Shown here in pieces: positions 22,627 to 40,742 of a stretch of DNA of 64,000 nt. The DNA comes from Arthrobacter woluwensis. GTDB lineage: Bacteria; Actinomycetota; Actinomycetes; Actinomycetales; Micrococcaceae. The stretch's first letter is position 1. Every line of letters begins with the position of its first letter. The DNA lies in the NCBI RefSeq assembly GCF_030816155.1, contig NZ_JAUSXR010000001.1, positions 1,054,001-1,118,000 on the forward strand. Direction: 5' to 3'. Both the position numbers and the translations under genes were made by a program. Under the pieces are notes generated by a model, which worked only from the letters and a program-made list of their open reading frames with translations, was not told the DNA's origin and did not search any database.

Positions 22627-23688
22627 ATGTCTGAGACCACTAAGGAAGTCATGGCCCCCAGCCCGTTGGATGAGGCCGCTCTCCAGAACGCTGTCGCAGA
22701 AGCCCTGGCAGCCTTTGAGGAGGCCGCCGATCTTGAGGAACTCAAGACCACACGGCTGGCGCACACCGGTGAGAAATCACCCCTGAGCCAGGCGAACGCG
22801 GCCATCCGCGATCTGCCCAAGGATCAGAAGAGCGCCGCCGGCAAGCTCATCGGCAGTGCCCGCGGACAGGTGAACAAGGCGCTCGCCGCCCGCACCGTGG
22901 TGCTGGAGGAGGAAAACGACGCGCGGATCCTCCTCGAGGAGACCGTGGACGTCACCGCCGCGCCGCGCCGTCGCCGTGCCGGCGCCCGGCACCCGCTCTC
23001 CGTGCTCCAGGAGCAGGTCTGCGACATCTTCGTCGGCATGGGCTGGGAGATCGCGGAAGGCCCTGAGCTCGAGTCCGAGTGGTTCAACTTCGATGCCCTG
23101 AACTTCCAGCCGGACCACCCGGCGCGCGAGATGCAGGACACTTTCTTCGTGGAGCCCCCGGAGGCCCACTTGCTGCTGCGCACCCACACCTCGCCGGTCC
23201 AGGTCCGTTCCATGCTGGAACGCGAACTGCCGGTCTACGTGCTGTGCCCGGGCAAGGTGTTCCGCACAGACGAGGTCGACGCCACCCATACGCCCGTGTT
23301 CCACCAGTTCGAAGGGCTGGCCGTCGACAAGGGTCTGTCCATGGCGGACCTGCGCGGCACGCTGGAGCACTTCGCCCGGCAGATGTTCGGCGCGGAAGCC
23401 AAGATCCGGCTGCGCCCCAACTACTTCCCCTTCACCGAGCCGAGCGCCGAACTCGACATCTGGCACCCGGGCGCCAAGGGCGGTCCGCAGTGGATCGAGT
23501 GGGGTGGCTGCGGCATGGTCAACCCGAACGTGCTCCGCGCGGCCGGGATCGACCCGGAGGTGTACTCCGGTTTCGCGTTCGGCATGGGCATCGAGCGCAC
23601 CCTCATGTTCCGCAATGAAGTTCCTGACATGCGGGACATGATCGAGGGCGACATTCGTTTCAGCGAGCACTTCGGGATGGAGATCTAA
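22627..23688 (+). CDS. pheS: Phenylalanyl-tRNA synthetase alpha subunit PheS
   Basis: The 353-residue catalytic subunit of the (alpha-beta)2 enzyme has an N-terminal coiled coil (residues ~10-90, ending [17 protein letters not shown]). The class II core follows, with [38 protein letters not shown] (motif 2) and [13 protein letters not shown] (motif 3). ATG at 22627 was chosen because its N-terminus fits the family; TAGACT at 22566 could be the -10, giving a ~50-nt leader. pheT starts 2 nt after the stop. I found no T-box. Confidence 0.96.
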
Positions 23689-23690
23689 GC

Positions 23691-26234
23691 GTGCGCATTC
23701 CACTTTCCTGGCTCCGTGAGTACACGGAGCTCCCTGTAGGCGCGTCCTCCGAGGACCTGATGGCGGATCTGGTCCGCGTCGGCTTCGAAGAGGAGGACGT
23801 GCACCGTCCGGCCGATTCGATCTCCGGCCCCGTCGTGGTGGGTCAGGTCCTGTCCCTCGTCAAGGAACCGCAGAGCAACGGCAAGACCATCAACTGGTGC
23901 CAGGTCCGCGTGGTCCCGGAAGGCCAGGAGCAGACGCTGGACGGCAAGGGCATCGAGCCCTCCGGCATCCAGGGCATCGTCTGCGGCGCCCACAACTTCG
24001 TGGAGGGTGACAAGGTGGTGGTGACCCTCCCGGGCGCCGTTCTGCCGGGTGACTTCCACATCTCGCCGCGTAAGACCTACGGTCACGTCTCCGCCGGCAT
24101 GATCGCCTCGGCGCGCGAACTGGGGCTGGGGGATGAGCACGATGGGATCATCGTGCTGTCCACCCTCGGCCTGGACCCGGAGCTCGGCACCGACGCCCTC
24201 GAACTGTTCGGTCTGACCGACGAGGCGGCCGAGATCAACGTGACCCCGGACCGCAGCTACGCCTTCAGCATCCGGGGTGTGGCCCGTGAGTACGCGCATG
24301 CCACCGGCACCGCCTTCACCGATCCGGCCTCCCAGGTCTCCGTGCCGTCGACGCTCGCCGAGGGCTACCCGGTCACGCTGTCCGACCAGGCGCCGATCTA
24401 CGGTGTGCCCGGCTGCGACCGCTTCGTGGCCCGCGTGGTCCGCGGCGTGGACGCCAGCCGTCCCACCCCGCAGTGGATGGTCTCCCGGCTCCGGCTTGCC
24501 GGCATCCGTTCCATCAGCCTGCCGGTGGACATCTCCAACTACGTCATGCTGGAGCTCGGGCAGCCGAACCACTGCTATGACCTCGACACCCTCGAGGGCG
24601 GCATCGTGGTGCGCCGTGCCCTCCCGGGCGAGCGCATCCTCACGCTGGATGAGAAGGACCGTGCGCTCGACGCCGAGGACCTGGTCATCGCGGACGACTC
24701 CGGAGCGATCGGGATCGCCGGCGTGATGGGCGGCGCCCGCACCGAGGTGTCCGCGAGCACCAAAGACATCCTGGTGGAGGCGGCCCACTTCGACACGATC
24801 TCCATCGCGAGGGCCCGCCGTCGCCACAAGCTGCCGAGCGAAGCGTCCAAGCGGTTCGAACGCGGTGTCGACTGGTACCTGGCGCCCGTCGCCGCACAGC
24901 GCGTGGTGGATCTCCTCGTGGAACTCGCCGGTGGGACCGCAGACGAGGCGGGCACTGATGTGGGCACGGCCCCGGAGACGGTGAACATCTTCCTGCCGTC
25001 CGGTTTCGTCTCCGCACGGATCGGGGTGGAGTACACCACCGAGCAGATCGTGAACAGCCTGACGGACCTCGGCGCGACCGTGACCGAAACCGAGGGCGGC
25101 TGGACCGTCACGGCTCCGAGCTGGCGCAATGATCTGGAGACCAAGGAGGACCTCTCCGAGGAGATCGCCCGCCTGGTCGGCTACGACAAGATCCCTGCCA
25201 CCCTTCCGGTGGCGCCTCCCGGACGGGGCCTGAGCCGCGTCCAGAAGCAGCGCCGTCGCGTGATGCAGGCCCTCGCGGACTCCGGTCTGGTGGAGGTTCT
25301 CGCCTACCCGTTCGTCACGAAGGCGTCCAATGACGTGTTCGGAACGCCGGAGGCCGGTGCCGCGGTGCCTGCCATCAAGCTCGCCAACCCGCTGAGCGAG
25401 GAGTTCGGCTGGCTGCGGACCTCCGTGCTCCCGGGCCTGATCGACACCGCCAAACGCAACATCTCGCGTGGTTTCCGTGACCTGGAGCTGTATGAAGCGG
25501 GTCTGGTGTTCCTCCCGGGAGGTGAGCTGGGCTCCGCAGGCATCCCGCCGCTGGGTGCCAAGCCTTCTGACGAGGTGTTGGACGGGCTGAACCAGGGCAT
25601 CCCCGCGCAGCCGCAGCACCTTGCCGGCGTCTTCACGGGCAAGGACAGCCCCGCCGGGCCGGGTCACGCCCCGCGTGCCTGGGACTGGGCCGACGCGGTC
25701 GATGCCGCACAGCTCGTGGCCGATGTCCTCGGCGTCGAACTCGTGGTGGAACAGGGCGCGCACCAGGCCTTCCACCCCGGCCGCACCGCCGTGCTGCGTC
25801 TGCGGTCCGGGGACCTCGTGGGCTACGCGGGCGAGCTCCACCCCAAGCTCGTGAAGTCCCTCGACCTGCCGGCCCGTACGGTCGCGTTCGAGATCGATGC
25901 CGATGTCCTCTTCGACGCCGCGGCCGACGTCGTGGTGGCAAAGCCGATCTCCACCTTCCCGGTGGCGACGCAGGATGTGGCGTTGATCGTCGACGGCGAT
26001 CAGCCGGCCGCCGCCGTTCAGGACGCGTTGCGTGAAGGAGCCGGTGAGCTCTTGGAGGATGTCGCGCTGTTCGATGTCTACGTGGGCACCGGGATTCCGG
26101 AGGGCAAGAAGTCCCTCGCCTTCGGTCTGCGGTTCCGCGCTGACGACCGCACCCTGACCGCTGACGAGGCTTCCGAGGCGCGTGCCTCGGCGGTCGCGCT
26201 CGCGGCGGAGCGTTTCGGGGCCGTCCAGCGCTGA
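23691..26234 (+). CDS. pheT: Phenylalanyl-tRNA synthetase beta subunit PheT
   Basis: The 847-residue product begins MRIPLSWLREYTELP. Next come a tRNA-binding OB domain (residues ~40-150), the B3/B4 editing domain (SIRGVAREYAHATG...VDISNYVMLELGQPNHCYD), B5, and the catalytic-like core. The C-terminal ferredoxin-fold anticodon-binding domain includes PISTFPVATQDVALIVDGD. The GTG start is 2 nt after pheS, so translation is coupled. Length and domain order are normal. Confidence 0.96.
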   Translation: MRIPLSWLREYTELPVGASSEDLMADLVRVGFEEEDVHRPADSISGPVVVGQVLSLVKEPQSNGKTINWCQVRVVPEGQEQTLDGKGIEPSGIQGIVCGAHNFVEGDKVVVTLPGAVLPGDFHISPRKTYGHVSAGMIASARELGLGDEHDGIIVLSTLGLDPELGTDALELFGLTDEAAEINVTPDRSYAFSIRGVAREYAHATGTAFTDPASQVSVPSTLAEGYPVTLSDQAPIYGVPGCDRFVARVVRGVDASRPTPQWMVSRLRLAGIRSISLPVDISNYVMLELGQPNHCYDLDTLEGGIVVRRALPGERILTLDEKDRALDAEDLVIADDSGAIGIAGVMGGARTEVSASTKDILVEAAHFDTISIARARRRHKLPSEASKRFERGVDWYLAPVAAQRVVDLLVELAGGTADEAGTDVGTAPETVNIFLPSGFVSARIGVEYTTEQIVNSLTDLGATVTETEGGWTVTAPSWRNDLETKEDLSEEIARLVGYDKIPATLPVAPPGRGLSRVQKQRRRVMQALADSGLVEVLAYPFVTKASNDVFGTPEAGAAVPAIKLANPLSEEFGWLRTSVLPGLIDTAKRNISRGFRDLELYEAGLVFLPGGELGSAGIPPLGAKPSDEVLDGLNQGIPAQPQHLAGVFTGKDSPAGPGHAPRAWDWADAVDAAQLVADVLGVELVVEQGAHQAFHPGRTAVLRLRSGDLVGYAGELHPKLVKSLDLPARTVAFEIDADVLFDAAADVVVAKPISTFPVATQDVALIVDGDQPAAAVQDALREGAGELLEDVALFDVYVGTGIPEGKKSLAFGLRFRADDRTLTADEASEARASAVALAAERFGAVQR

Positions 26235-26249
26235 CGTTTCCCGCACCAC

Positions 26250-26321
26250 CATCGACTGCTCCATACGATGTCGAAATCCCGAGAATATCCGGGAAATCGG
26301 CTTCGTATGGAGCAGTCGATG
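26250..26321. repeat. 72-nt palindromic repeat, copy 1
   Basis: CATCGACTGCTCCATACGA (26250-26268) is exactly complementary to 26303-26321, and the 34-nt centre continues as an imperfect stem (CCCG...CGGG). The whole element forms one long hairpin after pheT. A diverged copy of the same length and ends lies at 26851-26922. Confidence 0.88.
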
Positions 26322-28000: not shown

Positions 28001-28819
28001 ATGCGCGTTTTCACCTGGCTGGGCTCTCTCGATGATGCCGCGCGCGATGCCGGCCTTCCGCCCCTCGACGCCGCCGAACAGGAACGGGCGCGCGCCTTCA
28101 CCTCGGGCACCGCGCGAGCGCGCTTCGGCGCCTTGCGCCGGGTGCAGCGACAGCTCCTGGGGGACATCCTCGACGTCCACCCGGGACGACTGGTCAGTGC
28201 CTACGAATGCCCTGATTGCGGCCGGGGGGCGGGACACGGCAGGCCGGGATATGCGCTGACGGGAGTGGGCCCGGAAAACTCAAGCCCACAGATTTCAGTC
28301 CCACAGAACCCCCGCCCACAGAGCCTCCCCGGCGTGGCACTGTCCGCCAGCCGTGCTGGGGAGTGGGGCGCCGTCGTCGTCGTGACGGGAGCCGATCCCG
28401 ACTTCCGCATCGGTCTAGACCTGACCCTCGAACGGGAGATCTTCGACGGCTTCGACGACGTCGCCGTCAGCGGGCCGGAACGCGACTGGCTCCGGACACA
28501 GGAACCTGGAGCAAGGAACGCCGGCCGGGCCGCGCTGTGGGCCGCGAAAGAGGCCGTGGCCAAGCGCGACGGCCACGGCCTGAGAACGGATCCGTCTGGT
28601 ATCCCGGTCCTGGCCGCGCGCGGACACCGGCGAACGCCCGCGGGCGACGCGACGGCCTATGCGCCAGGAGTGGTATGGCTGGAGGCCCGTGCGGAGGGGC
28701 TGCCTCCGCACGTGCTCACGGCAGCGGTGCCGGCAGCGGCGGAAGGTGCTTTTCGTGCAGCCATGGCCGGAGTAGACCGGCCGCGTCGAGCCCCGGCGCC
28801 AGTGAATCCGCGAGGGTGA
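28001..28819 (+). CDS. 4'-phosphopantetheinyl transferase superfamily protein
   Basis: The 272-residue product opens with VFTWLGSLDD and has the Sfp-type pieces: RRVQRQLLGD, CPDCGRGAGHGRP, the metal-binding GLDLTLER (catalytic Asp of GxD) and the WAAKEAVAKRDGHGL (WxxKEA) motif. A Pro/Gln-rich insert (ENSSPQISVPQNPRPQ) splits the usual HGRP-LSxS region. These enzymes activate carrier domains with the CoA arm. The most obvious local client is the NRPS-like protein at 30114-34106, whose Ser573 needs this arm. Its last 104 nt overlap the convergent M1 gene. Confidence 0.84.
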   Translation: MRVFTWLGSLDDAARDAGLPPLDAAEQERARAFTSGTARARFGALRRVQRQLLGDILDVHPGRLVSAYECPDCGRGAGHGRPGYALTGVGPENSSPQISVPQNPRPQSLPGVALSASRAGEWGAVVVVTGADPDFRIGLDLTLEREIFDGFDDVAVSGPERDWLRTQEPGARNAGRAALWAAKEAVAKRDGHGLRTDPSGIPVLAARGHRRTPAGDATAYAPGVVWLEARAEGLPPHVLTAAVPAAAEGAFRAAMAGVDRPRRAPAPVNPRG

Positions 28820-30080
28820 AGAGTTCCTGCGGCGTGACCGCGGCGTGGCGGTGTTCGCGGGTCCACTCCCGCAGGAGGGTGAAGAACTGCTCGTCGCCCA
28901 TGGCGGTCCGCAGCACGTGGAGGGCCAGGGCGCCCCGCTTGTACACGCGGTCATCGAACATGTCCCGGGGGCCGGGATCGCCGATCACCAGGTCCTGGGC
29001 CTGATCCGCGAGTTTGCGCCAGGCCGCGAGCACCCGCAACTGGGTGCTGAGCGTCCCACTGGCCTCGCTCCACAGCCATTCGGCGTAACAGGCGAACCCT
29101 TCGTGCAGCCAGATGTCCTTCCAGCTGCCGACCGTCAGGGAGTTGCCGAACCACTGGTGGCTCAGTTCGTGAGCCACGAGGCGCTGAGCCTCCCACTCGG
29201 TGGCGAGGTGGTTGCGCCCGATGATCGACAAGGCCTGCGCCTCGAGCGGGATCTCGAGCTCGTCTTCCGTGACCACGACGCTGTATTCGCCGAAGGGGTA
29301 CGGGCCGAAGCGGTCCTCGAAGAGGTCCATCATCTCGCGCTGCCGGGCCAGCCCCGTCTCGGCCTGACCGCGGAGCGACGGCGGCACCGCGACGTGGATC
29401 GGGACCGCGCTCGCGGCGCCGTCGACATCGAACGTGGTGTACCGCCCGATCTGGAGTGTCGCCAGGTAGGTGGCCATCGGCTCCTTCTGCTCGAACACCC
29501 AGGTCTCGCGGCTGGACTTCCGGCGGTGCTCGACGAGGCGGCCGTTGCACACCACGCGGTAGCCGGCGTCGGTGGTCACTGTGAAGCGGTAGGAGGCCTT
29601 CTGGCTCGGGTGATCATTGCACGGGAACCACGACGGCGCGCCGTCCGGCTGTCCGGCGACCAGCACGCCGTCGCGCAGCTCCTCCCAGCCGACCTCACCC
29701 CAGGTGCCACGGCGCGGCCGCGGATTGCCCTCGTAGCGCACCTCCAGAAGGAAGTCCTCGCCCTTGGCGATGCTGTGCGGGGCGTTGACGACGAGCTTGT
29801 CCCCGCGCTGGGCGAACTTCGCCACGCGGGATCCGTTGAGCTGGATCTTGGTCGGCTTGAGACCAGCCAGATCCAGCGAGATCTGGGACAGCTTCGCATT
29901 CGCGCGCCCCCGGAGGATCGCCACACCCTGCAGCCGGTTGCTCGCCAGCCGGCAGTCGAGTTCCAGATCGTAGTGCCGGACGCTGTAGTCCGCGCTCCCG
30001 TGCCCGGGGGTGTACGGGTCCGGGATCGTGGAGGCCGGGTGCTTCTTGCCGTGGTGCTCAGACATGGGAGAGAGGGTCAT
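28716..30080 (-). CDS. M1 family zinc aminopeptidase
   Basis: The 454-residue product has the M1 beta-saddle N-terminal domain and a gluzincin domain with zinc motif HELSH (His304, His308) and the third ligand Glu327 in WLHEGF, the M1 spacing of 18 residues. It lacks the long C-terminal helical domains of PepN, so it is a short M1 enzyme. No signal peptide is visible. ATG 30065 (MSEHHGK) is an alternative start; neither has a good ribosome site. It lies 33 nt after the NRPS-like gene on the same strand. In epsilon-poly-lysine producers a poly-lysine-degrading M1-type aminopeptidase sits beside pls (from memory), so a matching job is plausible. Confidence 0.88.
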   Translation of the reverse strand: MTLSPMSEHHGKKHPASTIPDPYTPGHGSADYSVRHYDLELDCRLASNRLQGVAILRGRANAKLSQISLDLAGLKPTKIQLNGSRVAKFAQRGDKLVVNAPHSIAKGEDFLLEVRYEGNPRPRRGTWGEVGWEELRDGVLVAGQPDGAPSWFPCNDHPSQKASYRFTVTTDAGYRVVCNGRLVEHRRKSSRETWVFEQKEPMATYLATLQIGRYTTFDVDGAASAVPIHVAVPPSLRGQAETGLARQREMMDLFEDRFGPYPFGEYSVVVTEDELEIPLEAQALSIIGRNHLATEWEAQRLVAHELSHQWFGNSLTVGSWKDIWLHEGFACYAEWLWSEASGTLSTQLRVLAAWRKLADQAQDLVIGDPGPRDMFDDRVYKRGALALHVLRTAMGDEQFFTLLREWTREHRHAAVTPQELFTLADSLAPGLDAAGLLRPWLHEKHLPPLPAPLP

Positions 30081-30113
30081 CCAGGGTCGGGGACGGGGAC
30101 GGTGCGGGGGCTG

Positions 30114-33100
30114 CTACGGTCCGCGCCAGGGGCTGACCGGATTGCCCATCCAGTAACTCCCGGCCGGGACCGCTTCACCCCGCATCACGAGGGACGCGGG
30201 ACCGACCGTGGCCCCGCTGCCCAGGGATGCCTGGGGCAGGATCACGCCGTGCGGCCCCATGGTGGAACCAGCCTCCAACGTTACGGTATCGATCGCCATG
30301 ATGCGGTCGTGGAAGAGGTGAGTCTGCACCACGCAGCCGCGGTTCACGGTGGAACCGTCGCCCAGGGTCACCAGGTCCGCCTCCGGCAGCCAGTAGCTCT
30401 CGCACCAGACGCCGTGACCGATCTTCGCGCCGAGCGCCCGGAGCCACCAGACCAGGGCGGGAGTGCCCGCTGCGGCCCGTGCGAACCAGGGTGCGGCGGC
30501 CATCTCGATGAAGGTGTCCACCACTTCGTTCCGCCAGATGAAGGAACTCCAGAGCGGGTGCTCGCCTTCGCGGATCCGCCCCACCAGGACCCATTTGGCG
30601 ACGACGGCGCTCGCGGCCGCGACCGCTCCGGCCAGCAGGACCACGAGACCGCCGAGCAGCGCGGCCAGCCAGTAGCCGGTGCCGCGGGCGATGGCGTCGA
30701 GAAGGACCATGACGCCCACCGCCAGGTAGCCCGTCAGCAGGACCGGGAAGACGCGGCACAGCTCCCAGAGGGCGCGTGCCACCTTGAGACGGGTGGGCGG
30801 TTCGAAGGTGCGGCTCGCGTCGGTGCTCTGTGCCACGCGCCGCAGCCGGACCGGGGGACTGCCGAGCCAGGAGCTGCCCGACTTGGCCTTGCGCGGTGTG
30901 GCGGAGAGGACCGCCACGAGGGAGTTCTTCGGCACACTGCGGCCGGCCGCCGTCATCCCGGAGTTGCCGAGGAAGGCTCGCTTGCCCACCTTGGCCGGGG
31001 CGACTTTGAGCCAGCCGCCGCCCAGCTCGTAGGAGGCGACCATCGTGTCGTCGGCCAGGAACGCGCCGTCGCCCACGGTGGTCATGCTCGGCACCAGCAG
31101 GACGGTGGAGGCCTCCACGTTCTTGCCGATCGTGGCGCCCAGCAGCCGGAGCCAGATCGGGGTGAAGAGGCTGGCGTAGATCGGGAATAGGAGGTCGCGG
31201 GCCATGTCCAGAACACGCTCCGTGGCCCAGACCTGCCAGCCGACCCGGCTGCGCACGCGGTGATGCCCTTCCACGAGGCCGATCGCCAGCGCCCGCGTCG
31301 TCCCGAGGATCAGGAGCGCGTTGCAGAGGAACCAGACCACGGAGGCCAGCGGCACGGACCAGGCGAGTGCGCCGAGGGACTCGGAGAGCGATGCCGCGCC
31401 GTGCAGGGCGCCCACGACCACGAGCCCGGCCACCGCGGCCGAGATGAACGGGATGCACGCCAGGAGCCCGGAGGCCGCGGCGAAGGCGGTGAACCAGCTG
31501 AACTCCCGGACGCCCTCACTGACGCCACCGTACTCGGGCCAGGCCGGCTTGGCCTTGCCGGTCCGGCCGGCCGGGGATCCGGCCACGGTGGTGCCCGCCT
31601 TGACCTTGCCGGTCACGGCGGAGCCTGGCTCGACGATCGCGTCGGCGCCCACCTTCGCGCCGGGCATGAGCGTGCTGCGCGCGCCGATGGTGGCGCCGGG
31701 ACCGATCGAGACGGAGCCGATGTGGACCTTATCGCCGTCGACCCACCAGCCGGAGAGGTCCACCTCGGGCTCGACGTTCGCGCCGCGGCCGACGGTCAGC
31801 AGACCGGTGACGGGCGGCACGGAGTGGAGGATCACGTCGCGGCCCAGCTTGGCGCCCAGGGCACGGGCGTAGTACGGGACCCACGGAGCGCTGGCCAGGC
31901 TGACCGCGCTCGCGGCGTCCTGGATCTGCTCCGCGAGCCAGAGCTTGAGGTGTACGCGGCCGGAGCGGGGGTATACGCCCGGGGTGACCCCTCGCAGGAG
32001 CACCCGCGCGGCCACCACGGCGATGCCCATCCGGCCCAGGGGGCTGACGAAGACGGCCCAGGACAGCAGGACCCACCACCAGGAGACGGTGGGCGCCGCG
32101 TGGAGGACGCGCCAGGCGGAGAGCAAATTGTTGACGGCCATGAGGTACGTCAGCCAGCGCATGCCCACCAGGATGAACAGTGGCACGCCCATGAGGGTCT
32201 GGAACACCTGGGTCTTCCGGGCGGTCCGGCGGACCACACGCTCCTTCGCCACGACGGCCTCGCCGTCCGGGACGGAGGCGCGGCAGGCTTCGACGAGGGC
32301 TCCGACGCGGGGGTTGGCGTAGATGTCGGCCACGGTGACGGTCGGGTAGCGGCGGCGCAGGGCGGAGACCAGCTGCGCGGCGGCGAGGGAACCGCCGCCG
32401 TGGGCGAAGAAGTCGGCGTCGAGGCTCGTGGCCTGGGCGCCCAGCACGGCGCTCCAGGTGTCCACGATCCACTGGGCATCGTCGGGAAGATTCAGTGGGG
32501 CGGCGTCCGCGGCGTCGGCAGAGCCTCCGGCCAGCGGCCACGGCAGGGCCTTGCGGTCCACCTTGCCGCTCGTCTTGGTCGGCAGACTGTCGGTGGTGGT
32601 CAGGAGGGGGATGAGCGGAGCGGGCAGGGACTCGCCCAGAATCTCCCGCAGCCCGCCCAGGTCCGGCTCGGCGTCCCCGGCCGGCACGAGGTAGCCGACC
32701 AGGACCTGGTTCCCGGCCGCCGTCGTCTGCACGGCCGCCGCGGCGCCGGCGATGCCCGGAAGCGCCTGGAGGGCCGCGTCGACCTCGCCGAGTTCGATAC
32801 GGCGTCCGCCGAGCTTGACCTGTTCGTCCGCACGGCCCTGGAAGATGAGGCCCGCGGCCTCGTAGCGGACCAGGTCGCCGGAGCGGTAGGCGCGTTCCCA
32901 GCCGAGGCTGGGCATCGGCGCGTACTTCTCCGCGTCCTTCGCGGGATCCAGGTAACGCGCCAGGCCGACACCGCCGATGATCAGCTCGCCGATCTCGCCT
33001 TCCGTCACCGGCACGCCCTCGGCGTCGACGACGGCGAGGTCCCAGCCGTCCAGCGGCAGGCCGATGCGCACGGGGCCGGGTCCGCCGAGGGGAGCGGCGC

Positions 33101-34106
33101 AGGCCACGACCGTGGCCTCCGTGGGCCCGTACGTGTTCCAGACCTCGCGCTCGTCCACGGCGAGGCGCTCGGCCAGCTCGGGCGGGCACGCTTCGCCGCC
33201 GAAGATCAGCAGGCGCACGTTCTCCAGCGCTTCGGCGGGCCAGAGCGCGGCGAGCGTCGGGACGGTGGAGACAACGGTGATGCCGTGGTTGATGAGCCAC
33301 GGCCCGAGGTCCATGCCGGTGCGGACCAGGGCGCGCGGTGCGGGGACGAGGCAGGCGCCGTGCCGCCAGGCGAGCCACATCTCCTCGCAAGAGGCGTCGA
33401 AGGCGACCGAGAGCCCAGCGAGCACGCGGTCGTCGGTGCCGATGGGCTCACCCTGGAGGAAGAGCCGCGCCTCGGCGTCCACGAACGCGGCCGAATTGCG
33501 GTGCCGCACGGCGACGCCCTTCGGAGTTCCGGTGGAGCCGGAGGTGAAGATGACCCAGGAATCGTCCTCGGGCAACGGCATGCGGGGAGCCGGGAAGGGC
33601 TTGGGGCGCTTCTTGTCCACCACGATTTCGCCCTTGGCTTTGAGGATGCCGGCCACCTTGGCTTCGCTGAACACGAGGCGGGCGCGTTCGTCCGGGTCGT
33701 CGGCGTCCACCGGCACGTAGGCGGCGCCCAACAGGAGGATGGCCAGGATGGCGATGTAGAGCTCATTGGTGCCGGAGGGGATCCGGATGCCGATCTTGTC
33801 CCCGGCGCCGAGCCCGGCCCGGTGGAGCTTGCGGGCGTAGCCACGCACCTCGTCGGCCAGCTCGGCGTAACTGAGCGACTTCTTCCCGTCATCCAGAGCC
33901 GAGGCCTCGGGGTTCGCCTCGACCGTGGCGAGGAAGATGTCCACCAGGGTGCGCTCCGGGGGCGCGAGAACGCCGCCCGGCATCTGAGGTTCGTGGACGG
34001 TCCCCGTGGACGACGGCGCGCCGCCGGCCTTCACCGCGGGCTCGGGGCCGGGGGCCTCCGGAGCGGGGGAAGGGTCATGCGGGGAGGATTCGGGATGCTC
34101 GGTCAC
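30114..34106 (-). CDS. Pls/PosA-type single-module NRPS (A-T-membrane-LbH x3)
   Basis: The 1330-residue product has an adenylation domain at ~50-540, with A3 FTSGSTGTPKG (near 186), A5 NTYGPTEATV, A7 YRSGDLV and A10 KTSGKVDRK. A carrier domain follows, with Ser573 in GGGSLAA. Three pairs of membrane segments (~634-714, 865-949, 1112-1179) alternate with three left-handed beta-helix domains (~765-840, 975-1067, 1202-1330). This is the layout and length of epsilon-poly-lysine synthetase Pls (about 1319 residues). Hand alignment to GrsA gives the pocket code DAESIGTVVK; Glu at 239 suggests a basic substrate such as Lys, Orn or Dab. The GTG start (34106) follows AAAGGA. Confidence 0.9.
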   Translation of the reverse strand: MTEHPESSPHDPSPAPEAPGPEPAVKAGGAPSSTGTVHEPQMPGGVLAPPERTLVDIFLATVEANPEASALDDGKKSLSYAELADEVRGYARKLHRAGLGAGDKIGIRIPSGTNELYIAILAILLLGAAYVPVDADDPDERARLVFSEAKVAGILKAKGEIVVDKKRPKPFPAPRMPLPEDDSWVIFTSGSTGTPKGVAVRHRNSAAFVDAEARLFLQGEPIGTDDRVLAGLSVAFDASCEEMWLAWRHGACLVPAPRALVRTGMDLGPWLINHGITVVSTVPTLAALWPAEALENVRLLIFGGEACPPELAERLAVDEREVWNTYGPTEATVVACAAPLGGPGPVRIGLPLDGWDLAVVDAEGVPVTEGEIGELIIGGVGLARYLDPAKDAEKYAPMPSLGWERAYRSGDLVRYEAAGLIFQGRADEQVKLGGRRIELGEVDAALQALPGIAGAAAAVQTTAAGNQVLVGYLVPAGDAEPDLGGLREILGESLPAPLIPLLTTTDSLPTKTSGKVDRKALPWPLAGGSADAADAAPLNLPDDAQWIVDTWSAVLGAQATSLDADFFAHGGGSLAAAQLVSALRRRYPTVTVADIYANPRVGALVEACRASVPDGEAVVAKERVVRRTARKTQVFQTLMGVPLFILVGMRWLTYLMAVNNLLSAWRVLHAAPTVSWWWVLLSWAVFVSPLGRMGIAVVAARVLLRGVTPGVYPRSGRVHLKLWLAEQIQDAASAVSLASAPWVPYYARALGAKLGRDVILHSVPPVTGLLTVGRGANVEPEVDLSGWWVDGDKVHIGSVSIGPGATIGARSTLMPGAKVGADAIVEPGSAVTGKVKAGTTVAGSPAGRTGKAKPAWPEYGGVSEGVREFSWFTAFAAASGLLACIPFISAAVAGLVVVGALHGAASLSESLGALAWSVPLASVVWFLCNALLILGTTRALAIGLVEGHHRVRSRVGWQVWATERVLDMARDLLFPIYASLFTPIWLRLLGATIGKNVEASTVLLVPSMTTVGDGAFLADDTMVASYELGGGWLKVAPAKVGKRAFLGNSGMTAAGRSVPKNSLVAVLSATPRKAKSGSSWLGSPPVRLRRVAQSTDASRTFEPPTRLKVARALWELCRVFPVLLTGYLAVGVMVLLDAIARGTGYWLAALLGGLVVLLAGAVAAASAVVAKWVLVGRIREGEHPLWSSFIWRNEVVDTFIEMAAAPWFARAAAGTPALVWWLRALGAKIGHGVWCESYWLPEADLVTLGDGSTVNRGCVVQTHLFHDRIMAIDTVTLEAGSTMGPHGVILPQASLGSGATVGPASLVMRGEAVPAGSYWMGNPVSPWRGP

Positions 34107-34214: not shown

Positions 34215-35186
34215 TCAGTCGCCATCGGGGATCAGCAGCACCTTGCCCGTGGTCCGCCGCGCGGCGAGGTCACGGTGGGCGTCGGCGGCGCGGGAGAGCG
34301 GGTACCGGGCGCCGATGCGCACCGACAGGCCGCCGTCGGCCGCCGCGCCGAACACCTCGCCCGAGCGCCAGCGCCGTTCTTCGGCGTCCTGGAGGTGGTG
34401 TCCGAGCGTCGGCCGGGTGAGGAACAGGGAGCCGCCCTGGTTGAGCCGCTGGGGATCGACGGGCGGGACCGGCCCGGAGGCCGCGCCGAAGAGCACGAGC
34501 GTTCCGCGGACACGGAGGCTCTGCAAGGAGGAGTCGAAGGTGTCCTTGCCGACGCCGTCGTACACCACGTCCACGCCGCGGCCGTCCGTGAACTGCCGCG
34601 CCTGGGTGGCGAAGTCCGAGTAGTCGACCACCAGATCGGCGCCCGCGAGGCGCGCGAGGTCGGCCTTCTCCGGCGTGGACACCGTGGTGATGACCCGTGC
34701 GCCGCGGGCCTTGAGAAGCTGGATGAGGAGCAGCCCCACGCCGCCGGCCCCGGCGTGCACCAGGGCGGTGGTGCCCTCGCCGGCCGGGAAGCTGGAGGTC
34801 GCCAGGTAGTGGGCGGTCATGCCCTGCAGAGGAAGCGCCGCCGCGGTCTCGAGGTCCAGGCCGTCGGGGACGGGCAGGGCCTTGTCCGCGTCGACGATCG
34901 CGTACTCCGCGTAGCATTCGGCGGCCTCGGCGGTGGCGATCCGGTCGCCGACCGCGAAGCCGGTCACTCCCTCACCCACGGCGTCGACCACTCCGGACGC
35001 CTCCGCCCCGGGGGTCCAGGGGAACGGCAGGGGATAGATGCCCTCCCGCTGGTAGGTCTCGATGAAGTTGACCCCGGTGGCGGCCACGCGGAAGCGGAGC
35101 CGGCCGGGTCCGGGCTGGGGGACGTCCGTCTCGGTGTACTCGAGCACCTCTGGTCCGCCGGTCTCCCGGGCGATGATGGCGTGCAT
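34215..35186 (-). CDS. Quinone oxidoreductase, zinc-free MDR family
   Basis: The 323-residue product has the GroES-like N-terminal half (GVNFIETYQREGIYP) and a Rossmann domain with VHAGAGGVGLLLIQLLKA. It lacks the structural-zinc cysteine cluster, as in NADPH:quinone reductase QOR of E. coli. It probably reduces quinones or alkenals with NADPH in the cytosol. GGGAGG lies upstream of the ATG. The gene is divergent from argC and unrelated to it by function. Confidence 0.9.
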   Translation of the reverse strand: MHAIIARETGGPEVLEYTETDVPQPGPGRLRFRVAATGVNFIETYQREGIYPLPFPWTPGAEASGVVDAVGEGVTGFAVGDRIATAEAAECYAEYAIVDADKALPVPDGLDLETAAALPLQGMTAHYLATSSFPAGEGTTALVHAGAGGVGLLLIQLLKARGARVITTVSTPEKADLARLAGADLVVDYSDFATQARQFTDGRGVDVVYDGVGKDTFDSSLQSLRVRGTLVLFGAASGPVPPVDPQRLNQGGSLFLTRPTLGHHLQDAEERRWRSGEVFGAAADGGLSVRIGARYPLSRAADAHRDLAARRTTGKVLLIPDGD

Positions 35187-35305: not shown

Positions 35306-35323
35306 GAGGTGTAGAGTGTGCGC

Positions 35324-36355
35324 ATGAGCATATCCGTCGCCGTTTCCGGAGCCAGTGGTTACGCAGGGGGAGAGGTGCTGCGCCTGCTCGCCACCCACCC
35401 CGGAGTGACCATCGGCGCCATCACCGCCCACAGCAACGCCGGGGCCCGCCTGGGCAGCGTTCAGCCGCAGCTTCACACCCTCGGTGACCGCATCCTGGAA
35501 GAGACCAGCGTGGAGAATCTGGCCGGGCATGACGTGGTGTTCCTGGCACTGCCGCACGGCGCGTCCGCCGAGATCGCCGCGCAGCTGCCCGAAGGCACCC
35601 TGGTGATCGACGCCGGCGCGGACCACCGTCTCGAGGACGCCGCGGCGTGGGAGAAGTTCTACGGCTCGCCGCACGCGGGCACGTGGCCGTACGGCCTGCC
35701 CGAGCTCCCCGGCCAGCGGGAGAAGCTCCGCGGCAGCAAGCGCGTCGCCGTGCCGGGCTGCTACCCGACGTCGGCCCTCCTCGCGCTCACCCCGGGCTTC
35801 GCGGCCGGCCTCCTCGAACCGCAGGACGTGGTGATCGTCTCCGCCTCCGGCACGTCCGGCGCCGGGAAGGCCGCCAAGGTCAACCTGCTCGGCTCGGAGG
35901 TCATGGGCTCCATGTCGCCGTACGGCGTGGGCGGTGGGCACCGCCACACCCCGGAGATCGAACAGGGACTCGGCAACGCTGCGGGCGAGCCCGTCACGGT
36001 CTCCTTCACCCCGACGCTCGCCCCCATGAGCCGCGGCATCCTGACCACCGCGACGGCGCGGGTGAAGCCGGGCGTCGGCGCGGAGGAGCTGCGCGCGGCC
36101 TGGCAGGACGCCTACGAGAACGAGACGTTCGTGCACCTCCTGCCCGAAGGCCAGTGGCCGACCACCAAGTCCGTGCAGGGTTCCAACCACGCCGTCCTCC
36201 AGCTGGCGTACGACGCGCACACGGGAAGGGTGATTGTCAGTGCGGCAATCGATAACCTGACCAAGGGCACCGCAGGCGGTGCCGTGCAGTCCATGAACAT
36301 CGCCCTGGGTCTCGACGAATCCCTGGGTCTCGCCCAGCTAGGAGTCGCCCCGTGA
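35324..36355 (+). CDS. argC: N-acetyl-gamma-glutamyl-phosphate reductase ArgC
   Basis: The NADPH-dependent third step of ornithine synthesis. The 343-residue product opens [20 protein letters not shown] (Rossmann) and has the catalytic Cys146 in VPGCYPTS, with HRHTPEIEQ further on. I use ATG 35324; an in-frame GTG lies 6 nt upstream. Its stop overlaps the argJ GTG start by 4 nt. It is first gene of the arg operon. Confidence 0.95.
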
Positions 36356-37518
36356 GTGTCACCCTTCCCCTCGGATTCCGTGCAGCAGGCATCACCGCAG
36401 GCCTGAAAGCCAGCGGCAAGCCGGACATGGCCCTGGTCATCAACGACGGGCCGACCAAGCACGCCGCCGGGGTGTTCACCTCGAACAGGGTGGCCGCGGC
36501 TCCCGTGCACTGGTCCCGCCAGGTCCTCGCGGACGGCCGCGTGGACGCGGTGGTCCTGAACTCGGGCGGCGCGAACGCCTGCACCGGCCCGCAGGGTTTC
36601 CAGAACACGCACGCGACGGCGGAACGGCTCGCCGCGCTGCTCGGCGTCTCCGCCGGGGACGTCGCCGTCTGTTCCACGGGCCTGATCGGCGAGCAGCTGC
36701 CCATGGACAAGATCCTGCCCGGTCTGGAACTGCTGGTGGACAACGCCGGTCCGGATGCCGGGTCCGCCGCGGCCGAGGCCATCATGACCACGGACACCGT
36801 GAGCAAGGAAGCCAGCTACATCGGTTTCGATCCGCTCGGCACCGGCTTCACGATCGGCGGCATGGCCAAGGGGGCCGGCATGCTCGCCCCCGGCCTGGCC
36901 ACCATGCTCGTGGTTATCACCACGGACGCGATCGTCAGCCCGGAACTCCTGGACGCGGAGCTGCGGGAGGCCGTGCGTCTGAGCTTCAACCGCGCCGACT
37001 CGGACGGCTGCATGTCCACCAACGACACCGTCCTGCTGCTCGCCTCCGGCGCCTCCGGGTCCTACCCGGCCGGCGAGGAGTTCGGCAAGGGACTGCAGGA
37101 AGTGTGCAAGAACCTGGCCCGCCAGCTCATCGGCGACGCCGAGGGCGCCGCGCATGACATCGCCATCCGCACCTTCAACGCCGCCAGCGAGCTCGACGCC
37201 GAGACGGTGAGCCGCGCCGTCGCGCGCTCGAATCTCTTCAAGACCGCGATCTTCGGCAAGGACCCGAACTGGGGCCGCGTGCTCTCGGCTGTGGGCACCA
37301 CGGATGCCGTCTTCGACCCGGACCGGCTGAACGTGGCCATCAACGGGGTGCAGATCTGCCGCAACGGCGGGATCGGCGAGGACCGTTCCCTGGTCAGCCT
37401 GGAGGACCGGGAGGTGCTCGTGGAGATCGACCTGAACGCCGGCGAGGACGAGGCCACCATCTGGACCAACGACCTCACCCACGACTACGTGCACGAAAAC
37501 AGCGCCTACTCCAGCTGA
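36352..37518 (+). CDS. argJ: Bifunctional glutamate N-acetyltransferase / ornithine acetyltransferase ArgJ
   Basis: ArgJ recycles the acetyl group from N-acetylornithine to glutamate. The 388-residue proenzyme cleaves itself before Thr184, seen in [16 protein letters not shown], the family's ATML motif. With ArgJ the pathway is cyclic, which explains the absence of argA or argE here. Whether this ArgJ also uses acetyl-CoA (bifunctional) is not visible in the sequence. The GTG start is coupled to argC. Confidence 0.95.
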
Positions 37519-37548
37519 GTAGCGCACCACCCACGCCTTAGGAGAGAC

Positions 37549-38490
37549 ATGACCTCCAGCATGACGAGGGATCTCAGCCAGGCTCAGTCCAAGGCCGAGA
37601 CCCTCATCGAAGCCCTGCCCTGGATCCAGCGCTTCGCCGGGAACACCATGGTGATCAAGTACGGCGGCAACGCCATGATCAACGAGGAACTGCGACGGGC
37701 TTTCGCGGAGGACATCGTCTTCCTGCACCACGTGGGCGTGCGGCCCGTGGTCGTGCACGGCGGCGGTCCGCAGATCAACTCCATGCTGGCCCGGCTGGGC
37801 ATCGAGAGCGAGTTCAAGGGCGGACTGCGCGTCACCACGCCCGAGGCGATGGACGTCGTGCGCATGGTCCTCACGGGTCAGGTGGGCCGTGAGCTGGTGG
37901 GCCTCATCAACAACCACGGCCCGTACGCCGTGGGACTCTCCGGTGAGGACGGCGGCCTGCTGCAGGCCATCCGGACGGGCACCGAGGTGGACGGCGAGGC
38001 CGTGGACCTGGGCCTCGTGGGTGAGGTGGTGGGCGTGAACCCCCGCGCCATCCACGACCTCCTGGAGGCCGGCCGGATCCCGGTCATCTCCACGGTCGCT
38101 CCCGAGATCGGGCCGGACGGCTCCCCGACCGGGGATGTGCTGAACGTCAATGCGGACACCGCCGCGGCGGCCCTGGCCGAAGCGCTGGGCGCCAGCAAGC
38201 TCGTGATCCTGACCGACGTCGAGGGCCTGTACGCGAACTGGCCGGACAAGGACTCGCTCATCTCCACCCTGACCGCCGATCAGCTGAGGGCCATGCTGCC
38301 GAGCCTGCAGTCCGGCATGATCCCCAAGATGGAGGCCTGCCTCAAGGCGGTGGACGGGGGAGTGCCGCAGTCCCACATCGTGGACGGCCGCCTGCCGCAC
38401 TCCATGCTGCTCGAGGTCTTCACGACGGCTGGCATCGGCACCCAGGTGGTCCGCGACGCGGACGCCGACCTCACCACGGAAGGGCTGTGA
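37549..38490 (+). CDS. argB: Acetylglutamate kinase ArgB
   Basis: ArgB phosphorylates N-acetylglutamate and is the usual feedback-controlled step. The 313-residue amino-acid-kinase fold has the phosphate loops VIKYGGNAM and [10 protein letters not shown], and [16 protein letters not shown]. The N-terminal helix ([20 protein letters not shown]) is of the type that lets arginine-sensitive ArgB form hexamers, so arginine inhibition is likely. ATG 37549 follows AGGAGAG; 37561 is an alternative start. Confidence 0.95.
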
Positions 38491-39767
38491 CGCGCATGGC
38501 GAAGCACGCTGACATCACCCCCGCGCAGGAGGAAGGCCTCCTGGACGCCCGCACGGCGAGCGGCGCGGAGTGGCTCTCGCGCTACTCCGGAGCCCTGCTC
38601 AACGTCTTCGGCACGCCGCAGCGCGTGCTGGTCCGCGGCGCGGGCGCCGTGGTTTGGGATGCCGACGGCAAGGAGTACCTGGACCTGCTGGGCGGGATCG
38701 CGGTGAACGCGCTGGGCCACGCCCACCCGTTCGTCACCTCGGTGATCTCGAGCCAGCTGGCCACCCTCGGCCACGTCTCCAACTTCTTCGCCTCCCCGCC
38801 GCAGATCGCGCTCGCGGAGAAGCTCCTGGAGCTCGCGGGCGCGCCCGACGGCTCCAAGGTGTTCTTCTCCAACTCCGGCACCGAGGCCAATGAGGCGGCG
38901 TTCAAGCTCGCGCGCCGCAACGCGGACGGACCGGAAGGGCCGCGCCGGAAGATCATCGCCCTCGAGGGAGCCTTCCACGGCCGCACCATGGGCGCTCTCG
39001 CCCTCACCGCCAAGCAGGCTTACCGTGAGCCGTTCGAGCCGCTGCCCGGCGGAGTCGTCCATCTTCCGTTCAACGATCAGCAAGCGCTTCGCGACGCCGT
39101 CGACGGCCAGACCGCCGCCGTGGTCCTGGAGCCGATCCAGGGCGAGGCCGGTGTGCGTCCGCTCGATCCCGAGTACCTGCGGCTCGCCCGGGAACTGTGC
39201 ACCGAGCACGGCGCCCTCCTCATCCTGGACGAGGTCCAGACCGGCGTGGGGCGCACGGGCCAGTGGTTCGCCTTCCAAGAGAGCGGCGTGCTGCCGGACG
39301 CCATGACCCTGGCGAAGGGTCTCGGCGGTGGCTTCCCCATCGGTGCGCTCGTCACGTTCGGCGAGAAGGTCTCCGCCCTGCTGAACCCGGGCCAGCACGG
39401 CACCACGTTCGGCGGCAATCCGGTGGCGACGGCCGCGGCCCTTGCTACCCTGCACGTGATCGAGCAGCAGGGCATCCTGGCTCAGGTCCGCGCCACGGGT
39501 GAGCGCCTGGCGCGCGGCCTGGCCGCGGTGCCCGGCGTGACGGAGGTCCGCCAGCGCGGCCTGCTGATCGGGATCGACCTGGACGCCGACGTCGCGCCCG
39601 CTTTCATCACCGCGGCGCTCGACGCCGGTTTCATCCTCAACGCGCCCGGCCCCCACACGCTGCGCCTGGCGCCGCCCCTCATCCTCAGCGATGCCCAGGC
39701 GGACGCGTTCCTCGGCGCGTTCCCCGGCATCCTCTCCACGGCCAAGGCCGCCTCGGCGGCAGAGTAG
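38487..39767 (+). CDS. argD: Acetylornithine aminotransferase ArgD
   Basis: The 426-residue class III PLP aminotransferase makes N-acetylornithine; its PLP lysine is Lys277 in [25 protein letters not shown] holds the cofactor-contacting Asp. GTG at 38487 overlaps the argB stop (GTGA) and has GAAGGG before it; ATG 38496 is an alternative. It may also act in lysine synthesis as DapC, as many actinobacterial ArgD proteins do. Confidence 0.94.
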
Positions 39768-39773
39768 GTTCCC

Positions 39774-40742
39774 ATGACTTCCGTACGTCACTTCCTCAAA
39801 GACACCGACCTCAGCCCCGCCGAGCTGAACGAGGTCCTGGACCTTGCGGTGCGGCTCAAGGCCGAACCGGACTCCCTGGCCGTGTACGCGGGCGAAGGCC
39901 GGGCGCGCAAGACGGTCGCGGTCATCTTCGACAAGACGTCCACCCGGACCCGCGTGTCGTTCAGCGCCGGCGTGTCCGAGCTCGGCGGCAGCCCCCTCAT
40001 CATCAATCCCGGGGAGGCGCAGATCGGCCACAAGGAGTCCGTGGCCGACACCGCCCGCGTGCTCGAGCGCATGGTCTCCACGATCGTGTGGCGGACCGGC
40101 GCGCACCAGGGCCTGGTGGAGATGGCGGAGAACTCCCGAGTGCCCGTGATCAACGCGCTCTGCGACGACTACCACCCGTGCCAGCTGCTGGCCGATCTGC
40201 TCACCATCCGCGAGCACAAGGGCACGCTGGCCGGCCTCACCCTGACCTACCTGGGCGACGCCGCCAACAACATGGCGAACTCCTACCTCCTGGCCGCCGT
40301 CAACGCGGGCATGCACGTGCGCATCGCGGGCCCGGAGGGGTACCTGCCGGCGCCGGAGATCGTCGCCGCGGGTGAGGAGCGCGCCGCCCAGACCGGCGGC
40401 AGCGTCCTCGTCACGAGCGACGCGGCCGAGGCTCTGACCGGCGCCGACGTCGTCGCCACGGACACCTGGGTGTCCATGGGGCAGGAGGCCGAGAAGGAGT
40501 CCCGCATGACGCTCTTCCGTGACTACTCGGTCACCGAGGAGGCCATGGCGCAGGCCGCGCCGGATGCCATCGTGCTGCACTGCCTGCCCGCGTACCGCGG
40601 GTACGAGATCGCCGCGGACGTGATCGACGGCCCGCAGTCCGTCGTGTGGGACGAGGCTGAGAACCGTCTGCACGCCCAGAAGGCCGTGATGGCGTGGCTC
40701 ATGCACCGTTCCGGCCTGTCCGTGGTGCCGGGTCTGGACTGA
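39774..40742 (+). CDS. argF: Ornithine carbamoyltransferase ArgF
   Basis: The 322-residue product makes citrulline from ornithine and carbamoyl phosphate. It has the carbamoyl-phosphate motif [23 protein letters not shown] and the ornithine-binding HCLPAYRG. It begins 6 nt after argD and shares its stop (TGATG) with the argR start. Confidence 0.96.

Follow-up and report, generated by a model that had tools for sequence, protein, structure and literature searches.

A probable epsilon-poly-L-lysine cassette with its own carrier activator and a predicted cytosolic M1 peptidase in Arthrobacter woluwensis

A gene for a synthetase of the Pls type, pls, was investigated together with its two neighbours in a 64,000-nt stretch of the genome of Arthrobacter woluwensis (Micrococcaceae; assembly GCF_030816155.1, contig NZ_JAUSXR010000001.1, positions 1,054,001 to 1,118,000), which is called the window here. 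The locus is probably an epsilon-poly-L-lysine cassette (roughly 80% in our estimation), consisting of the synthetase, its activator and a cytosolic M1 peptidase cutting the polymer. The features in window coordinates are:

30114..34106, minus strand: pls, probable epsilon-poly-L-lysine synthetase, 1330 aa, GTG start, with adenylation (A) domain, carrier (T) domain, three transmembrane pairs and domains C1-C3; assigned by TIGR02353, 7WEW match and pocket code
32529..33962, minus strand: A domain, Pls residues 49-526, with lysine-contact residues D237, E241, S280, T325 and K515; assigned by alignment to 7WEW
32286..32474, minus strand: T domain, Pls residues 545-607, phosphopantetheine site S573; PF00550 (45 bits), motif GGGS
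30117..32207, minus strand: C-terminal membrane and condensation region, Pls residues 634-1330; assigned by hydropathy, AlphaFold2 models, fold matches, hhalign and conservation
28716..30080, minus strand: PldII-like M1 zinc peptidase, 454 aa, without export signal; PF01433 and PF17900, HExxH-18-E, 43% identity to the M1 of locus L086
28001..28819, plus strand: Sfp-type 4'-phosphopantetheinyl transferase (PPTase), convergent, 272 aa; PF01648, motifs GxD and WxxKEAxxK

The M1 gene follows pls in the same direction after a spacer of 33 nt (30081-30113) and overlaps with the PPTase gene by 104 nt at the 3' ends. A recount showed that the first-pass annotation, made from the letters of the window, had given coordinates and lengths of all three genes correctly. 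Its peptidase with HEXXH-18-E 33 nt behind pls and its converging phosphopantetheinyl transferase were confirmed by the M1 domains with the motif and by the PF01648 match, respectively. Both profile searches it had recommended, with TIGR02353 and with M1 models, gave matches. The agreement of profiles, motifs, hydropathy and fold is not at chance level.

For the synthetase, TIGR02353 (Pls/PosA family non-ribosomal peptide synthetases) scored 675.2 bits against a curated cut-off of 423.1 and covered residues 634-1324. The absence of C-terminal membrane domains from a profile search, which would have spoken against the first-pass annotation, was thus not observed. A Pfam search of Pls detected only AMP-binding, PP-binding and Hexapep/Hexapep_2, but no condensation (C) or thioesterase (TE) domain. 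Hydrophobic stretches were arranged in three pairs (about 634-658/679-697, 880-898/910-945 and 1122-1140/1147-1165). The domains C1, C2 and C3 are mutually homologous (hhalign probabilities of 99.4, 97.9 and 99.3%), and the motif QTHLFHDR (residues 1261-1268) is found in C3 only among them. AlphaFold2 models of the C-terminal region reached mean pLDDT (predicted local distance difference test) values of 85.8 and 90.1 and resembled left-handed beta-helix acyltransferases. Hence the architecture described at first, 1330 residues with A and T domains, three membrane pairs and three beta-helix domains, was found again by profiles, hydropathy, hhalign and models, and the assignment as Pls-type synthetase of a cationic homopolymer is supported. 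Several annotated plasmid records label such a gene 'Pls/PosA family non-ribosomal peptide synthetase', so that automatic annotation would pick up this gene. Five Mycobacterium plasmid records (H14-H18) contain a Pls match limited to residues 48-846 of the window protein.

The best match of the A domain to a solved structure was the epsilon-poly-L-lysine synthetase of Streptomyces albulus (7WEW chain A, 644 bits). With code positions mapped onto GrsA, the ten-residue pocket code DAESIGTVVK is identical in both proteins, in pairwise as well as in multiple alignments. The lysine contacts described for 7WEW, D213, E217, S256, T301 and K495 (PMC11253843), align with D237, E241, S280, T325 and K515 of the window protein. 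Code position 2 was reported as Ala for lysine, Met for ornithine and Phe for diaminopropionate or diaminobutyrate; the pocket of PosA, an ornithine enzyme, is DMEHNGTVSK (PMC10522769). The hand-read code of the first-pass annotation was exact and, in the comparison it had proposed, equals that of Pls and differs from that of PosA. Of its list of lysine, ornithine or diaminobutyrate, the latter two are unlikely. Given a pocket that does not differ from the one in 7WEW, L-lysine is very probably the monomer. The code was DAESIGTVVK in 104 and DAESIGTVIK in 12 of 116 full-length Pls rows (the window and 115 of 120 loci, five being left out as partial), a change from V to I at position 9 only. 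More distant Pls-like synthetases of Micrococcaceae (L210, L211, L215, L217, L219, L220) carry the code DFECLSVVTK, whose Phe in the second position points to a diamino acid shorter than lysine.

A dedicated carrier activator beside pls is also supported. ACPS (PF01648) matched the window PPTase with 30.7 bits (cut-off 25). In the whole genome PF00550 matched twice, the T domain of Pls and a separate open frame of 111 residues, by its size a putative fatty-acid carrier. PF01648 likewise matched twice, the window PPTase and an open frame of 126 residues, by its size AcpS. Since Pls holds the sole carrier besides the one with the size of an acyl carrier protein and the window PPTase is the sole enzyme besides the AcpS-sized one, Pls is evidently the client of this PPTase, judged from the genome sequence. 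At least two PF01648 matches were present in 148 of 158 Pls-positive vs 48 of 137 Pls-negative genomes of the family. The enzyme keeps GxD and, in the alignment, the Sfp-type motif WxxKEAxxK. Its metal motif reads D-L-T and thus lacks the latter of the two acidic residues in the D-x-E of Sfp, a position that is variable among relatives.

The peptidase was identified by the N-terminal and catalytic M1 domains (PF17900, PF01433) and by its zinc site HELSH-18-E, beginning at residue 304. All 96 aligned rows, the window M1 and 95 other Pls-linked ones, share HExxH and the EG(F/L)A behind it. Among 120 loci picked by similarity or by hand and grouped by hand, an M1 gene lies directly downstream of pls in 26/27 type-1 loci of the family, 60/61 other type-1 loci, 8/18 loci of the Streptomyces group and 0/14 type-2 loci. 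Pls was detected in 158 of 295 genomes of the family with a best E value of 0 (165 at 1e-60). A close M1 homologue occurred in 149 of the 158 Pls-positive vs none of the 137 Pls-negative genomes; when all M1 matches to 1e-30 were counted, the numbers were 150 and 7, the cut-offs being chosen after the tables were seen and the related genomes not being independent. Six of these seven exceptions have a longer M1 (open frames of 727-767 aa) and G235 has one of 36% identity. Such longer M1 genes, 34-41% identical to the window M1, were located at L227:2613-4532, L229:5779-7689 and L230:5194-7128. The first lies about 6 kb from a pls of the sister clade described below; for the other two no pls was present within the fetched stretch. 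The pldII gene of S. albulus likewise comes immediately after pls (PMC9223678), and the M1 is supported as a PldII-like partner of Pls. Two observations run against the pairing of pls and M1. Nine Pls-positive genomes of the family, all with the code DAESIGTVIK, lack a close M1, and on the Rhodococcus opacus plasmid pROB01 (L250), with a pls 62% identical to that of the window, neither annotation nor tblastn revealed an M1 within 5 kb on either side.

The behaviour of the three genes among relatives was examined with the following flanks:

34215..35186, minus strand: quinone-oxidoreductase-like protein (QOR), bordering the cassette on the right in relatives
23685..26264, minus strand: 859-aa flank protein, bordering the cassette on the left in relatives, without Pfam match (E up to 1e-5)
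35318-40739, plus strand: arginine biosynthesis operon with argC (35318), argJ, argB, argD and argF, assigned by Pfam domain

In 12 compared Pls-positive loci M1, pls, QOR and argC were found in all and the PPTase in 11. Twenty Pls-negative relatives were searched for argC and 19 loci were fetched. QOR and argC were present in all 19, and 15 had the 859-aa neighbour within the fetched stretch, as did 17 of the 120 Pls loci. At six of the 19 (L231, L233, L236, L240, L246, L248) the 859-aa gene and QOR are only 60-118 nt apart and pls, M1 and PPTase are all absent; L246 and L248 gave weak A-domain-like matches of 26-27% elsewhere. The other 13 have a longer gap, or their left flank lies beyond the fetched stretch; L241 and L249 retain the PPTase alone, and L243 a pls fragment. 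Thus pls, M1 and PPTase act as a cassette between conserved neighbours, and their joint absence at six empty sites supports a joint function.

From these observations the following route is proposed. The neighbouring PPTase would prime S573 of the T domain, and the A domain would adenylate L-lysine and load it onto this site. C1-C3 may pack as one pseudo-trimeric acyltransferase at the cytosolic face of the six membrane helices, by analogy with PosA, whose C-terminal region was modelled as a pseudo-threefold beta-helix domain (PMC10522769). Only one active site is proposed, located in C3 (QTHLFHDR, H1263/H1266), where the epsilon-amine of lysine or of the chain would attack the lysyl thioester repeatedly. 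The membrane part of Pls would pass the chain out, and the cytosolic M1 would shield the cell by hydrolysing epsilon-poly-lysine that remains within it. Since each residue of this polymer has a free alpha-amine beside the scissile amide, an aminopeptidase could in principle attack any bond.

It has to be considered that the cassette may be silent or decaying and yield no product. The text of PMC8117764 reports no polymer from native Corynebacterium variabile. Stop codons were counted within the matched Pls frame of eight listed relatives and a pls fragment of 84 residues was found in the Pls-negative locus L243 (L243:7763-8014), hinting at repeated loss. In the window, however, none of the three frames is broken, and the three other genomes of the genus have retained a pls with 97, 97 and 88% identity. 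We therefore regard a silent locus as rather unlikely for this strain.

The first-pass annotation had proposed that the locus makes and trims a cationic homopolymer. Its Pls-type synthetase and PldII-like partner are retained, but trimming outside the cell is not. The hydropathy test revealed no hydrophobic or Tat-like (twin-arginine translocation) N-terminus of the window M1. Nor could a signal be accommodated in front of it, as the pls stop ends the upstream frame after 11 codons. As it has neither an export signal nor room for one, the enzyme most likely acts in the cytosol and not outside the cell. Among the 95 other Pls-linked M1s, a Tat-like N-terminus was found in eight, which are all eight members of the S. 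albulus-type Streptomyces clade, and in none of the remaining 87, including the Streptomyces loci L111, L124 and L126 outside that clade. The test was simple hydropathy with no trained predictor, applied to an upstream frame of up to 90 codons (15-residue mean of at least 1.3 and preceding twin arginines). The Tat-like signal in that clade agrees with the location of S. albulus PldII outside the membrane (PMC9223678). Because PldII is stated to lie there and the window M1 lacks a signal, the latter is filed as PldII-like and not as PldII.

Concerning the purpose of such enzymes, a study and a review on Streptomyces conflict. Repression of pldII in S. albulus led to chains above 40 residues (PMC9223678), which favours a peptidase that sets the length of the secreted polymer. 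In contrast, inactivation of both degrading enzymes (Pld/PldII) changed neither yield nor length (PMC8506220, citing Yamanaka 2010). At the window locus the missing export signal does not support trimming of secreted polymer, and we consider it unlikely there. Cytosolic clean-up and self-protection suits the M1 better.

A general aminopeptidase located beside pls by accident is quite improbable. Public records name its relatives plainly as M1 family metallopeptidase or aminopeptidase N and the matching profiles are generic, but the genome holds two other M1 genes (open frames of 873 and 886 aa), no Pls-negative genome of the family has a close short M1, and the gene is lost together with pls and PPTase at the six empty sites.

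A polymer of ornithine or diaminobutyrate, with ornithine supplied by the adjoining arg operon, is very improbable: Glu at code position 3 would be compatible with any diamino acid and the start of the operon is found 1.2 kb upstream of the synthetase gene (22 of the 120 loci have argC in the vicinity of pls), but all ten pocket positions match the lysine enzyme and not PosA, and the QOR-argC pair, kept in all 19 Pls-negative loci, places the operon outside the cassette as an old neighbour and no sign of an ornithine polymer.

Furthermore, a separate Pls clade without adjacent M1 was found, comprising 20 of the 125 rows in the tree with a support of 0.989. Its loci are L085:4015-11207, L079:3987-11579, L072:4110-11465, L059, L071, L073-L078, L080, L081, L132 and L221-L226. 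A gene for an HGSNAT-type membrane acetyltransferase lies near pls in 14/14 loci and in six further members (L221-L226). On either side of pls, a DapA-like gene and a YkuD-like protein were each found in 11/14 loci; an M1 follows 3.4-3.9 kb downstream in 6/14. Profile checks covered two proteins for PF07786, one for DapA and one for YkuD, the last scoring below its cut-off. An HGSNAT-type neighbour was also seen at L217 and L219, with code DFECLSVVTK. The sister clade may represent a second way to handle poly-lysine. Only tentatively do we propose that the Pls lineages are split by the self-protection of the maker. The window lineage would keep a cytosolic M1 in a cassette lost as a unit, with its own PPTase in Micrococcaceae, and only the S. 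albulus-type Streptomyces would later have moved the M1 outside. The sister lineage, mostly with DAESIGTVIK, would use the HGSNAT-type N-acetyltransferase-like gene, often with dapA and the YkuD-like secreted protein, suggesting acetylated or wall-attached poly-lysine.

Epsilon-poly-lysine is an approved food preservative with Streptomyces as commercial source (PMC8117764). An intact, compact cassette with a dedicated activator in a non-filamentous host is therefore a possible alternative source. Moreover, the cytosolic peptidase makes the purpose of the degrading enzymes, self-protection inside or trimming outside, directly testable. Pls homologues were listed in Arthrobacter, Glutamicibacter, Micrococcus and others, with identical or highly similar pockets across the coryneform set (PMC8117764), and the same cluster type is described in other actinobacteria (PMC12067966, PMC10628120). 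A search of the open-licence literature gave no report of a polymer isolated from an Arthrobacter-type host. The novelty suggested at first was overstated in view of these homologues and of Pls in more than half of the family genomes.

The short M1 of PDB 6a8z (474 residues), presumably from Deinococcus, is comparable in length to the window M1 and has an HExxH zinc site as well, but matched with only 187.8 bits. Closest is the pls-pldII pair of S. albulus, represented here by the Streptomyces locus L086, with 93% identity to 7WEW in the A domain. Domain order, ten-residue pocket and a peptidase gene directly downstream are the same (PMC9223678), at identities to L086 of about 54% for Pls and 43% for M1. 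In contrast, the M1s of the S. albulus-type clade carry a Tat-like signal, and a tblastn search of these Streptomyces loci revealed no convergent PPTase. PosA, the delta-poly-L-ornithine synthetase of Acinetobacter baumannii, shares the architecture of the window Pls and differs in its ornithine pocket (PMC10522769). By description, the window also resembles C. variabile, a non-filamentous actinobacterial host with an operon of pls and peptidase, whose Pls makes epsilon-poly-lysine when expressed in S. coelicolor (PMC8117764). Thus, the arrangement is already known from many actinobacteria; new are the behaviour as a cassette, the co-occurrence with M1, the PPTase with one client and the predicted cytosolic peptidase.

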